Origin: Halobacillus yeomjeoni | GTDB taxonomy: Bacteria; Bacillota; Bacilli; Bacillales; Halobacillaceae | Reading direction: 5' to 3' | Assembly (NCBI RefSeq): GCF_020171525.1 | Contig: NZ_JAIVAI010000001.1 | Coordinates: 1,054,001-1,118,000 of the forward strand | Length of the DNA stretch: 64,000 bases | Shown here: piece by piece, positions 1,587 to 55,732 of the stretch | Layout: each line of letters starts with the position of its first letter | Numbering within the stretch: the stretch's first letter is position 1 | Position numbers and translations under genes: made by a program | Notes under the pieces: generated by a model | The model's input: the letters and a program-made list of their open reading frames with translations, nothing else | What the model was told of the DNA's origin: nothing | The model's database searches: none

Positions 1587-3299
1587 ATGTCTTTTGACGG
1601 AATTGTAACCCGGGCGATCACTCATGAATTGAATGAGACGATCCAGTCCGGACGAATCATGAAAATCTATCAACCTACCGATACAGAACTAGTATTCACA
1701 GTAAGAGCCCAGCGGAAAAACCATACGCTGTTATTATCTGCTCACCCGAGCTATGCCCGTTTTCATTTGACGGACGACCAATATCACAACCCGAAAGAAC
1801 CTCCGATGCTGTGCATGCTTCTGCGTAAGCACCTGGTCGGCGGTTTTATCGAGAACATCGAACAAGTGAGTATGGAACGAATCGTCAAGTTCCAGGTGCG
1901 TACCCGAAACGAGATCGGTGATGAAACGTTGAAGACGTTGATCATCGAAGTGATGGGCAAACACTCGAATATCCTTTTGGTCGATGAAGAACAAGGCCAC
2001 ATTTTGGACAGCATCAAACATCTACCCCCATCACAAAACCGTCATAGGACGATCATGCCGGGACAGCCGTACAAACTCCCACCGGAGCAGGGGAAAATCA
2101 ATCCGCTGGAATTGGAACCGGAAGCCTTGGTAAAGAAACTCGATTTCAACTCCGGAAAAATGGATAAGCAGATCCTCGGCATCGTCATGGGATTCTCACC
2201 GATGGTTACGAAGGAAATCGCCCATCAGGCGAGGCTCGGCGGACCGAAAGAATACCAGCAGGCCTATGCCGATGTACGAAAACGACTGATCGACCACGAG
2301 TATGACCCACAAGTCCATACCGGTGAACGCGATCAATTTTATGTCATGCCGCTGAATGCTTTCGACGGAAACGTAGACCATTACTCGACCGTGAGTGAAA
2401 TGCTCGATGCGTATTATTCCGGAAAAGCAGAACGGGACCGCGTCAAACAGCAAGCCGGTGATTTGTACCGGTTCTTGAAAAATGAACGCGATAAGAACGT
2501 TAGAAAAATCAAGAAACACCACCATACATTGAAAAAATCAGAATCCGCCGAAGAGTACCAGCGCCTCGGTGAGCTTTTGACCGCCCACATGCACACGGTC
2601 AAACAAGGCGACTCTGAAGCGAAAGTGATCGACTATTACGATCCGAATCAATCGGAAATCACGATCGAGCTGAACCCGAACAAAACACCGAGCGAAAATG
2701 CGCAAAGCTACTTCCAGCAATACCAGAAGCTGAAAAAGTCGAAGCAGGTGGTTCAGGAAGAAATCAAAAAAGCGGAGGATGAAATCCTGTACTTTGAGCG
2801 CTTGATTCAACAGGTGGAAAGTGCACGTGAGGAAGATATCGAAGAAATCCGTGAAGAATTACGGGAAGAAGGTTATATGAAGAAGAAAGCCCCTTCCAAA
2901 GGGAAAAAGAAGAACAAACCTTCAAAACCTGCACCGGAGAAGTTTGAATCCACCGACGGCACCCTGATTTATGTCGGCCGGAACAATAAGCAGAACGAAT
3001 ACCTGACCAACCGTATGGCCCAGAAATCTGATATATGGCTGCACGCGAAGGATATTCCTGGTTCCCACGTCGTCATCCGGGATGATGACCCGTCCGAGGA
3101 TACGTTGTTCGAAGCCGCCCAGCTGGCCGCCAATTTCAGTAAGTCCAGCAAATCATCAACGGTACCCGTAGACTACACGCAAATCCGTCATGTAAAAAAA
3201 CCATCCGGCGCAAAACCCGGATATGTGATTTATGATCATCAGCAGACATTGTTCGTGACGCCGGACGACTCGTTCGTGAAGCGGCTGCGCGTTCGCTGA
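1587..3299 (+). CDS. rqcH: Rqc2 homologue RqcH (NFACT protein)
   Basis: RqcH binds obstructed 50S subunits carrying peptidyl-tRNA and recruits tRNA-Ala to add C-terminal alanine tails, marking the nascent chain for degradation. The 570-residue protein has the NFACT-N/FbpA region (starting MSFDGIVTRAITHEL), a central lysine-rich coiled coil at about residues 290-420, a short basic linker, and the C-terminal NFACT-R domain with NDWLHAKD-like SDIWLHAKDIPGSHVVI. ATG 1587 was chosen over the in-frame GTG 1578 because that GTG forms part of the ribosome binding site AGAGGTG. Residues 97-98 are Glu-Arg, where B. subtilis has the functional Asp-Arg pair. Older databases call this family fibronectin-binding protein. 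A terminator follows. Confidence 0.95.
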   Translation: MSFDGIVTRAITHELNETIQSGRIMKIYQPTDTELVFTVRAQRKNHTLLLSAHPSYARFHLTDDQYHNPKEPPMLCMLLRKHLVGGFIENIEQVSMERIVKFQVRTRNEIGDETLKTLIIEVMGKHSNILLVDEEQGHILDSIKHLPPSQNRHRTIMPGQPYKLPPEQGKINPLELEPEALVKKLDFNSGKMDKQILGIVMGFSPMVTKEIAHQARLGGPKEYQQAYADVRKRLIDHEYDPQVHTGERDQFYVMPLNAFDGNVDHYSTVSEMLDAYYSGKAERDRVKQQAGDLYRFLKNERDKNVRKIKKHHHTLKKSESAEEYQRLGELLTAHMHTVKQGDSEAKVIDYYDPNQSEITIELNPNKTPSENAQSYFQQYQKLKKSKQVVQEEIKKAEDEILYFERLIQQVESAREEDIEEIREELREEGYMKKKAPSKGKKKNKPSKPAPEKFESTDGTLIYVGRNNKQNEYLTNRMAQKSDIWLHAKDIPGSHVVIRDDDPSEDTLFEAAQLAANFSKSSKSSTVPVDYTQIRHVKKPSGAKPGYVIYDHQQTLFVTPDDSFVKRLRVR

Positions 3300-3323
3300 T
3301 AAATCGTGGTTTTCGCTGATAAA
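3294..3323. repeat. Two CGCTGATAAA units, 20-bp period
   Basis: CGCTGATAAA occurs at 3294-3303 and again at 3314-3323. The first copy overlaps the rqcH stop codon. The core and the exact 20-base period match the longer array at 55647-55732. Confidence 0.6.
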
Positions 3324-52323: not shown

Positions 52324-52599
52324 TTATTCTTCTGTTTTTGTCTTTTGTTGATTAGAAATTTTATTATAGCCGGATTTCTTTACGAGTATCACATCTGTAC
52401 CGATATTGACGATTTGATCCCATGGGATGATCAGCTCTTCTTCCTTGCCGAAAAGTCCCATCGCTTTCCCTTTCAATTGGAGTACCAGCCCTTGCAGCCT
52501 GCCTCTTTGTGTGTCGATATCCAAATCGGAAATATATCCGAGGCGTTCGCCCGTTTCCATAGCTATGACGTCTTTCATCTGTAGTTCAGTAATTTTCAT
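52324..52599 (-). CDS. ylmC: PRC-barrel protein YlmC/YmxH family
   Basis: The 91-residue protein is a PRC-barrel of the YlmC/YmxH family: MKDVIAMETGERLGYISDLD and LVLQLKGKAMGLFGKEEELI, then IPWDQIVNIGTDVILVKKS. B. subtilis ylmC follows sigG in the same place and is linked to sporulation. ATG 52599 is preceded by AAGGAG. A 21-base-period repeat array lies directly upstream. Confidence 0.88.
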   Translation of the reverse strand: MKITELQMKDVIAMETGERLGYISDLDIDTQRGRLQGLVLQLKGKAMGLFGKEEELIIPWDQIVNIGTDVILVKKSGYNKISNQQKTKTEE

Positions 52600-52740
52600 C
52601 TTCGTTTTCACTCCTTTTTACACTATATGCAGCAGCCGCCTAAGAATTGTATGGAATTGGATGAGGGGGACGGTGCGTTGGAGGTGGTTTTGTGTGGGGT
52701 TGGGTGTGTTGCTGGTGGGGGTTCGTGTGTTGAGAGCGGC

Positions 52741-52955
52741 ATTGCGTATTTAGCTGGCTGGATTGCGTATATTCAGTCCATCATTGCGTGTTTTCCGGCT
52801 GGTATTGCGTATGTTCAGCCCATTATTGCGTATTTTCCACTGGATTGCGGAGTTTCAACTCTACATTGCGGGTGTTCACCGCTTTATTGCAGGATTCCAA
52901 CCCTACATTGCGGGTTTTCAACACCACATTGCAGAATTTCACCACCCCACTGCCG
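52741..52955. repeat. Eleven-unit tandem array with 21-bp period (ATTGCG)
   Basis: ATTGC(G/A) or a close variant starts at 52741, 52762, 52783, 52804, 52825, 52844, 52865, 52886, 52907, 52928 and 52949: ten steps, nine of exactly 21 bases and one of 19. The other positions of each unit vary, often TATTTTC or GGTTTTCA. It lies between ylmC and the sigG terminator. No convincing gene is present in 52600-53009. Confidence 0.85.
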
Positions 52956-52971
52956 ATTTACATCAAACCAC

Positions 52972-53003
52972 AAAAAAAGCGCCCCTGCGTTATGCAGAAG
53001 CGC
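52972..53003 (-). terminator. Terminator of sigG
   Basis: On the minus strand GCGC..CTGC pairs with GCAG..GCGC around a 5-base loop, followed by TTTTTTT. It is 7 bases after the sigG stop. Confidence 0.82.
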
Positions 53004-53009
53004 ACCATT

Positions 53010-53789
53010 TTATTGAAACATCGAAGAATTCATCTCTTTGATCGCCGCTTTTTCAAGACGGGACACTTGCGCTTGTGAAATACCGATCTCCTCAGCGACC
53101 TCCATCTGCGTTTTACCCTGGAAGAACCGCTTCGTCAAAATCATCTTTTCACGGTCGTTCAACTTTTTCATACCTTCTCTGAGTGACAGCTCATCCAGCC
53201 AGATCGAATCTTTTTCCCGGTCATCCTTCAACTGGTCGACGACAAAAATCGGATCGCCTCCATCGTTGTAGATCGGTTCAAACAAGGAAACGGGATCCTG
53301 TATGGCATCCATTGCGAAAACGACATCTTCATGGGGGACTCCCATGCGTTCGGCGATTTCATGTGGCGCGGGATCTTTACTGGTCTCTGCAATGATTTTT
53401 TCTCTCATCTGCAGAGCTTTGTAAGCAGTATCTCTCAAGGACCTGGAAACACGAATCGGGTTATTATCTCTCAAATACCTGCGAATCTCACCTATGATCA
53501 TCGGTACTGCGTAAGTAGAAAATTTAACATTGTGGCTTAGATCGAAATTATCGATTGATTTCATCAAACCGATACACCCTACCTGGAATAGATCATCTCC
53601 ATACTCTCCACGATTGTTGAAGCGCTGGATGACGGACAGGACTAATCGCAGGTTGCCGTTGACCAGCACCTCGCGCGCTTCCGTTTCACCGCTCTGCAAT
53701 CGTTCGAACAGGGCCCTCATCTCTGTATTTTTCAGCACAGGAAGTTTTGATGTATCTACACCGCATATCTCTACTTTATGTCGTGTCAA
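53010..53789 (-). CDS. sigG: RNA polymerase sporulation sigma factor SigG
   Basis: Sigma-G directs late forespore transcription. The 259-residue protein starts MTRHKVEICGVDTSKLPVLK, the SigG-specific N-terminus, followed by region 2 (DDLFQVGCIGLMKSIDNFDL), region 3 and region 4 (GKTQMEVAEEIGISQAQVSR). It follows sigE and is preceded by a near-perfect sigma-F promoter, consistent with forespore expression. The product is full length. Confidence 0.97.
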   Translation of the reverse strand: MTRHKVEICGVDTSKLPVLKNTEMRALFERLQSGETEAREVLVNGNLRLVLSVIQRFNNRGEYGDDLFQVGCIGLMKSIDNFDLSHNVKFSTYAVPMIIGEIRRYLRDNNPIRVSRSLRDTAYKALQMREKIIAETSKDPAPHEIAERMGVPHEDVVFAMDAIQDPVSLFEPIYNDGGDPIFVVDQLKDDREKDSIWLDELSLREGMKKLNDREKMILTKRFFQGKTQMEVAEEIGISQAQVSRLEKAAIKEMNSSMFQ

Positions 53790-55588: not shown

Positions 55589-55646
55589 AATCTGAATGGG
55601 TTTCCGGCAACTTTTGTAGAATTTGGGTGGGAGGGTTGGTTTGGTC

Positions 55647-55732
55647 GATAAAATCCGTTTTCCGCTGATAAATGGAAATTTCCGTTGATAAACAGGGGAT
55701 TTCACTGATAAACCAAATATCCCGCTGATCAC
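55647..55732. repeat. Five-unit array with exact 20-bp period (GATAAA)
   Basis: GATAAA starts at 55647, 55667, 55687 and 55707, with a decayed GATC at 55727. The longer unit is near TTTCCGCTGATAAA. It lies between the ftsZ terminator and the spoIIG promoter region. Two further copies with the same period occur after rqcH. Confidence 0.8.

Follow-up and report, generated by a model that had tools for sequence, protein, structure and literature searches.

Two-helical-turn direct-repeat arrays between genes in Halobacillus yeomjeoni and related Bacilli

Plasmid iterons are direct repeats of ~19–22 bp, set at helical spacing, to which protein binds cooperatively. For Escherichia coli gyrase, the excerpted text of PMC6379681 describes a 130-bp degenerate motif with a 10.75-bp GC periodicity, and an enrichment in intergenic BIME-2 elements that is independent of transcription; REP/BIME-2 elements and gyrase sites of this species are also treated in extracts of that source, PMC2817692 and PMC3733652. 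Direct repeats of the heptamer TAACTGA form many intergenic tandem arrays in Beggiatoaceae, with neighbouring genes that have no theme (PMC4679880, in excerpt), and archaeal Borg elements carry many independent, partly intergenic tandem arrays that turn over quickly (PMC9879509, in excerpt).

Here we describe an array of direct repeats between sigG and ylmC in a 64,000-nucleotide stretch of the Halobacillus yeomjeoni genome (the window; positions are counted from its first base). Sequence is the usual basis for grouping short bacterial repeats, whereas here the sequence shifts with lineage and locus and the physical period stays. The unit is fixed at about two helical turns (20–21 bp) and consists of a constrained part of 13–14 bp and a free part of 6–7 bp; the sequence families vary between and within genomes. 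No description of this repeat class was found in the searched literature, which comprised open-licence PMC papers.

The sigG–ylmC array and its counterparts in the genome

The original prediction of eleven units with a 21-bp period and one 19-base step, lying between the sigG terminator and ylmC, is borne out by the core positions, a shuffle control and the flanking features (Table 1). ATTGC cores start at 52741, 52762, 52783, 52804, 52825, 52844, 52865, 52886, 52907 and 52928, followed by an ACTGC core at 52949; nine steps are 21 bp and one is 19 bp (52825 to 52844), and the orientation is identical throughout. Eight of the eleven units carry ATTGCG, two ATTGCA and one ACTGCC. The pattern ATTGCG-N15-ATTGCG (up to one mismatch) has 8 matches in the window, every one inside the array, against a mean of 0.40 and a maximum of 3 in 100 shuffles. 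All eleven cores lie in the interval first assigned to the array, but self-similarity at 21 and 42 bp runs further, over ~52687–52971, and a 42-bp dimer is visible alongside the 21-bp unit. The order of sigG and ylmC is the same in the B. velezensis annotation. Among named organisms, the nearest relatives of a neighbouring protein are Halobacillus in five of eight loci.

Table 1. Positions of the arrays and flanking features in the window
Feature	Position	Strand	Detail
ylmC-type gene, downstream gene	52324..52611	-	
Decayed outer units, 21/42-bp self-similarity without ATTGC	52687..52740	+	self-similarity
Eleven-unit array	52741..52955	+	consensus ATTGCGtatTTTCA followed by 7 free bases; a single 19-bp step (52825-52843)
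Self-similar stretch, sigG-side end	52956..52971	+	self-similarity
Terminator-like hairpin plus T run behind sigG, immediately ahead of the array	52979..53003	-	stem
sigG, upstream gene	53010..53789	-	
Second array, TTTATCA(G/A)(C/T)GGAAA-like (TTTATCAGYGGAAA-like) units, 20-bp steps	55643..55732	-	

The array is not alone. Three ATTGC cores at exact 21-bp steps give 18 matches at six dispersed places in the H. yeomjeoni genome, against none for the reversed control pattern. Steps across the six arrays are 21 bp in 30 of 32 cases; the others are one of 19 bp and one of 42 bp that contains a decayed core. The consensus over the 39 units is ATTGCGtatTTTCA (columns 1–14), with 19 bits in all, and columns 15–21 together hold ~1 bit. 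ATTGC had been singled out as the part that is kept while the rest drifts; columns 15–21 are indeed nearly free, but the conserved part is wider and takes in columns 1–14. Identity in columns 1–6 is 0.91 within arrays and 0.90 between them, and in columns 14–21 it is 0.36 and 0.33. In these last columns a unit resembles the next but one more than its neighbour (0.49 versus 0.35), which is the 42-bp dimer. Exact ATTGCGTATNTTC occurs 11 times in the genome, always inside arrays and in five of the six; with one mismatch there are 31 matches, compared with 15 for the reversed control.

The ten proteins encoded beside the five other ATTGC arrays share no functional theme, which argues against a regulon. 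Two array queries against plasmids, one relative's array against phages and two exact patterns against viral contigs gave no match, and we rejected a plasmid or phage origin on these queries. The second array of the window lies between the ftsZ terminator, which it follows directly, and spoIIGA, with its first and last units decayed. Two TTTATCAGCGAA units of the same family stand 20 bp apart at 3284–3323 (minus strand), beside a terminator-like hairpin. Pairs of TTATCAGC in stretches of two related genomes (G421 and G023) are spaced 20 bp once and 21 bp four times.

Distribution, location and evolution in related genomes

Intergenic arrays of related species have other cores with an unchanged period. 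Within the family, the ATTGC triple is matched in 5 of 44 genomes, with 18 of its matches in H. yeomjeoni, and the reversed control pattern, the CGTTA triple at 21 bp, proved to be a marker of arrays built on a different core and occurs in 13 of the 44. GAACA triples occur in 17 of 44, some of them coding; several such matches and L028 appear coding and were excluded as arrays. With the gap left free at 3–32 bases, GAACAATC pairs in the 44 genomes are spaced 21 bp in 26 of 36 cases, 20 bp in five and otherwise in five. Aligned units of relatives have GTTARG in common, then a lineage-specific stretch and a free part. A profile of GTTARG-type units (R1), which is blind to the core type of the sigG–ylmC array, matches in 19 of 397 genomes of the order, of which G088 and G301 seem coding or chance and G370 has all eight matches in one short stretch; matches per genome are lower bounds because 11 candidates were scored in each. 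The matching families are f1, f3, f10, f19, f25, f29 and f46, with the f3 and f46 matches seemingly spurious. In a class-wide sample R1 is found in 2 of 398 genomes, which belong to the same order and include the f46 genome.

Twenty other genomes of the genus were examined at the sigG–ylmC gap itself. A 21-bp array made of GGAACAG units is present there in G019, and G017 carries two of these units at a distance of 21 bp, but the other 18 have no two-turn row. These 18 lack any periodic row of 13–64 bp except one at 38 bp, with the ylmC start beyond the surveyed locus in three of them. At five loci (L058, L059, L061, L062 and L063) the same gap holds, by eye, a longer dispersed-looking repeat (GCTTTCC...GGCGGTGAGCCTCCTCGG) with GC-rich inverted parts.

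We also scanned without a seed for periods of 13–64 bp, covering the intergenic DNA of 400 kb each of G012, G421, G010, G023 and H. yeomjeoni and of eight named loci. The best period was 20–21 bp in 16 rows (0 in shuffles), 40–42 bp in 17 (0.7; two of the 17 come from Moorella loci and are coding-like) and 61–63 bp in 9 (1.3). Other rows had best periods of 19 or 22 bp (4 versus 0.3), 13–18 bp (4 versus 1.0), 23–38 bp (13 versus 3.3) and 43–60 bp (23 versus 2.3, 14 of them at 52–54 bp and all in G421); a stricter scan left the picture unchanged. The 52–54-bp rows do not fit the two-turn class, and some are high-identity repeats of another kind. Intergenic repeats of 52–53 bp in G421, some of high identity, are at L252:17717–18025, L254:15944–16188, L255:10165–10569 and L249:7408–7598; 52.5 bp would equal five helical turns. 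The same genome has near-palindromic TTCAAACAAACGTTTG-like pairs 54 bp apart (L261:1714–1791, L265:3245–3317 and L267:10717–10798).

Array density is very uneven, since two-turn rows range from 20 in G421, through 16 in G023 and 4 in G012, to 0 in G010. H. yeomjeoni has 0 at the scan threshold, and the sigG–ylmC array is missed because open frames of at least 100 codons were masked. In 200 kb of B. velezensis there were two rows, of 13 and 22 bp. Seven of the 40 two-turn rows of G012, G421 and G023 had fewer than three cores, and some of the remaining 33 are weak or pieces of one cluster; the core steps listed for these genomes are no evidence for the period, as the listing was restricted to 19–22 bp. 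Several different cores occur in each of G421 and G023, and some families step 20 bp or alternate between 20 and 21 bp.

By flanking open frames, 28 of 44 arrays lie in tandem, 11 in convergent and 5 in divergent gaps, in a set that contains orthologous copies of one locus and two arrays (L001 and L084) that overlap an open frame. Arrays are mostly past terminators, in either orientation, with terminator-like sites within 150 bp of 33 of the 44 (an uncontrolled count). For the unseeded set in G012, G421 and G023, the 27 gaps of 150 bp or more that hold an array were set against 388 other gaps. Convergent gaps make up 10 of 27 versus 59 of 388 (P = 0.007) and divergent gaps 2 of 27 versus 101 of 388 (P = 0.036); in tandem gaps the array is closer to the upstream stop than to the downstream start in 14 of 17 cases (P = 0.013). 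This location argues against ordinary promoter sites, and selection against insertion near promoters could be an alternative source of it.

Eight orthologous sets were aligned, of which L025/L026 failed to align at the array. At the argC locus G023 and G029 differ by 42 bp, or two units, and L195/L186 show length differences of single 21-bp units; duplication and deletion of whole units is the probable means of gain and loss. Arrays that are nearly perfect at 21 bp, in the variable part too, occur at L084:1423–1747 and L299:5251–5360 (G023) and at L079:1446–1635 (G002), apparently from fresh expansion, and indicate that slippage acts. Variable numbers of identical repeats without conserved phase had been named as the mark of simple slippage: unit numbers do differ between species, but they change in whole 21-bp steps, and core and phase are kept. 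Across seven pairs from five loci, changes fall in 23 of 234 cells of columns 5–13, which the search seed does not cover, compared with 49 of 177 for columns 14–20 (P = 3e-6). Three of these pairs come from one locus; in five independent pairs, columns 1–14 changed in 33 of 280 cells and columns 15–21 in 30 of 134 (P = 0.008). Change is two- to threefold slower in the core than in the variable part, and the mostly coding flanks of the pairs differ by 0.10–0.21.

Helical phasing and candidate roles of the arrays

Phasing and curvature were analysed in 49 arrays: 27 unseeded chains of at least four units, 17 of 34 seeded windows and five of the six H. yeomjeoni arrays (L005, a degenerate one, was dropped). 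The fraction of the variance of the unit's A/T profile that falls at two cycles per unit is 0.252, against 0.105 for random cores (s.d. 0.014; maximum 0.157 in 5,000 draws). With one array per core family (16, picked by the analyst, some probably related) it is 0.300 against 0.106, a value reached in 0 of 20,000 draws. Column permutation gave P < 0.1 in 23 of 49 arrays and P < 0.5 in 45. In most arrays the A/T content rises and falls about once in each turn of the helix; in the GAACAATC family this is weak or absent.

The slow change of the core suggests that something reads the units, and the two-turn period together with the A/T oscillation suggests that helical geometry matters. We favour, tentatively and with somewhat less than even confidence, the reading that the sigG–ylmC array is a member of a class of direct repeats in this order of Bacilli, which are intergenic and often at 3′ ends, and may serve as a double-stranded DNA platform for an oligomerizing or wrapping protein. 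The arrays would most likely act as double-stranded DNA, with a protein that oligomerizes along it or wraps it reading units at two-turn spacing; a complex of ~100–130 bp would form in the space that separates a terminator from the gene beyond it. Its possible role is in local architecture or topology, for example by providing loading sites where supercoils at the ends of genes are absorbed. The observations themselves comprise the anatomy, dispersion and period of the arrays, the slower change of their core, the A/T phasing and the location, whereas the binding, the kind of protein and the topological role are inferred.

The proposal that this is a protein-binding array, not a decaying repeat, holds in part: core and phase are kept in six arrays and between species, the two-turn period persists across cores and A/T is phased in most arrays, but unit number varies and slippage acts. 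Preservation of one helix face agrees with the 21-bp phase shared by the six arrays, but strict one-face phasing is not general, because some families step 20 bp or alternate 20/21. Several points count against the platform reading: a conserved 13-bp core exceeds what wrapping alone needs; there are 20-bp or 20/21-bp families; the GAACAATC family is weakly phased or un-phased in A/T; the species' own cores are replaced quickly, unlike what is usual at sites of a house-keeping protein; and near relatives have few arrays or none (0 rows in 400 kb of G010, and no two-turn row in 18 of the 20 other sigG–ylmC gaps).

The arrays might instead be neutral or selfish satellite DNA, amplified by slippage, occasionally copied to other intergenic sites and persisting after terminators, where it does least harm, with a period inherited from an ancestral 21-bp array. 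We consider this somewhat unlikely. Neutral satellites account for whole-unit gain and loss, for the nearly perfect arrays of relatives and for the avoidance of divergent gaps, and the apparent kinship of several cores (GTTARG) also speaks for them; they do not account for a core that changes more slowly than the variable columns of orthologous arrays, or for the A/T phasing, and equal core likeness between and within arrays and unrelated cores with a common period inside one genome also speak against them. A topological version of the platform reading, by analogy with E. coli, would make the arrays strong wrapping sites for gyrase or a similar topoisomerase, recognized by indirect readout. 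The one-turn A/T oscillation, the length of ~100–130 bp, the 3′-end and convergent location and the parallel with the E. coli gyrase motif and BIME-2 (PMC6379681, in excerpt) would suit this, but the conserved core of ~19 bits and the un-phased GAACAATC arrays make it improbable.

Intrinsically curved DNA that acts without a specific protein is very improbable: the five H. yeomjeoni arrays tested exceed 88–100% of GC-matched intergenic DNA in curvature as predicted with wedge parameters, but at a threshold of 0.1 only 5 of 49 arrays rise above column-permuted controls and 11 above intergenic DNA, so that we rejected static curvature as a general cause. We give the least credence to repeats that are transcribed and either act as RNA or undergo translation. 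A 129-codon open frame spans the sigG–ylmC array, but such frames prove nothing, as at least one is present by chance in each of the six H. yeomjeoni arrays; the 19-bp step shifts the repeat frame and other families step 20 bp, which disfavours a coding repeat. A few arrays of relatives fold better than shuffles, but folding z-scores fall below −2 in 5 of 49 arrays on one strand and 6 of 49 on the other, and the position of most arrays past terminators, in either orientation, also argues against transcribed repeats.

Beyond the platform reading lies a broader proposal, which we regard as unlikely: an undescribed class of bacterial chromosomal element defined by helical period and not by sequence, ~100–130 bp long. 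Its cores would turn over between lineages, with the two-turn unit and the one-turn oscillation of A/T content retained, and at the 3′ ends of genes it would provide nucleosome-like sites of wrapping or topology. Should the cause be a protein that wraps DNA or forms filaments, the arrays would show where the chromosomes of these Bacilli are organized or relaxed at the ends of genes, and their natural differences in spacing could serve to test this. Neutral arrays would be the bacterial counterpart of satellite DNA, with a preferred unit length that is unexplained.

Comparison with described repeat systems

As in a VNTR or minisatellite, copy number varies between relatives, by 21 or 42 bp in orthologous arrays, but drift is not independent of position in the unit, the core columns being slower. 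Plasmid iterons resemble the arrays in being direct repeats of similar length at helical spacing. The arrays differ in that many lie on a chromosome, without an adjacent replication gene and with no plasmid match in two queries; the neighbours here are sigG and ylmC, and the other H. yeomjeoni arrays lie beside unrelated chromosomal genes. The Beggiatoaceae repeats, as excerpts of their description present them, likewise form many intergenic arrays without a neighbour theme, but have a 7-bp unit of one sequence, mostly just upstream of start codons. Borg repeats, again from excerpts, share the many independent and partly intergenic arrays and the quick turnover; they are recent and extrachromosomal, whereas the arrays here are drifted and chromosomal, with one common period.

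The REP/BIME-2 elements, so far as the excerpted sources describe them, are also dispersed, intergenic, often at gene ends and arrayed, and the gene-end location is found here too. REPs are palindromic and alternate in orientation, whereas the arrays here are direct repeats with a fixed two-turn step and no general hairpin signal: the eleven units all point the same way, and the 49 arrays show no excess of folding. Some BIME-2 elements are bound by a wrapping enzyme with a GC periodicity of about one turn, according to the same excerpts; a possible counterpart in the arrays, over ~100–130 bp, is the A/T oscillation, which most of them show but the GAACAATC family does not. By structure, then, the arrays are not REP/BIME elements; in their working they may, by analogy, come closest to the BIME-2/gyrase sites.
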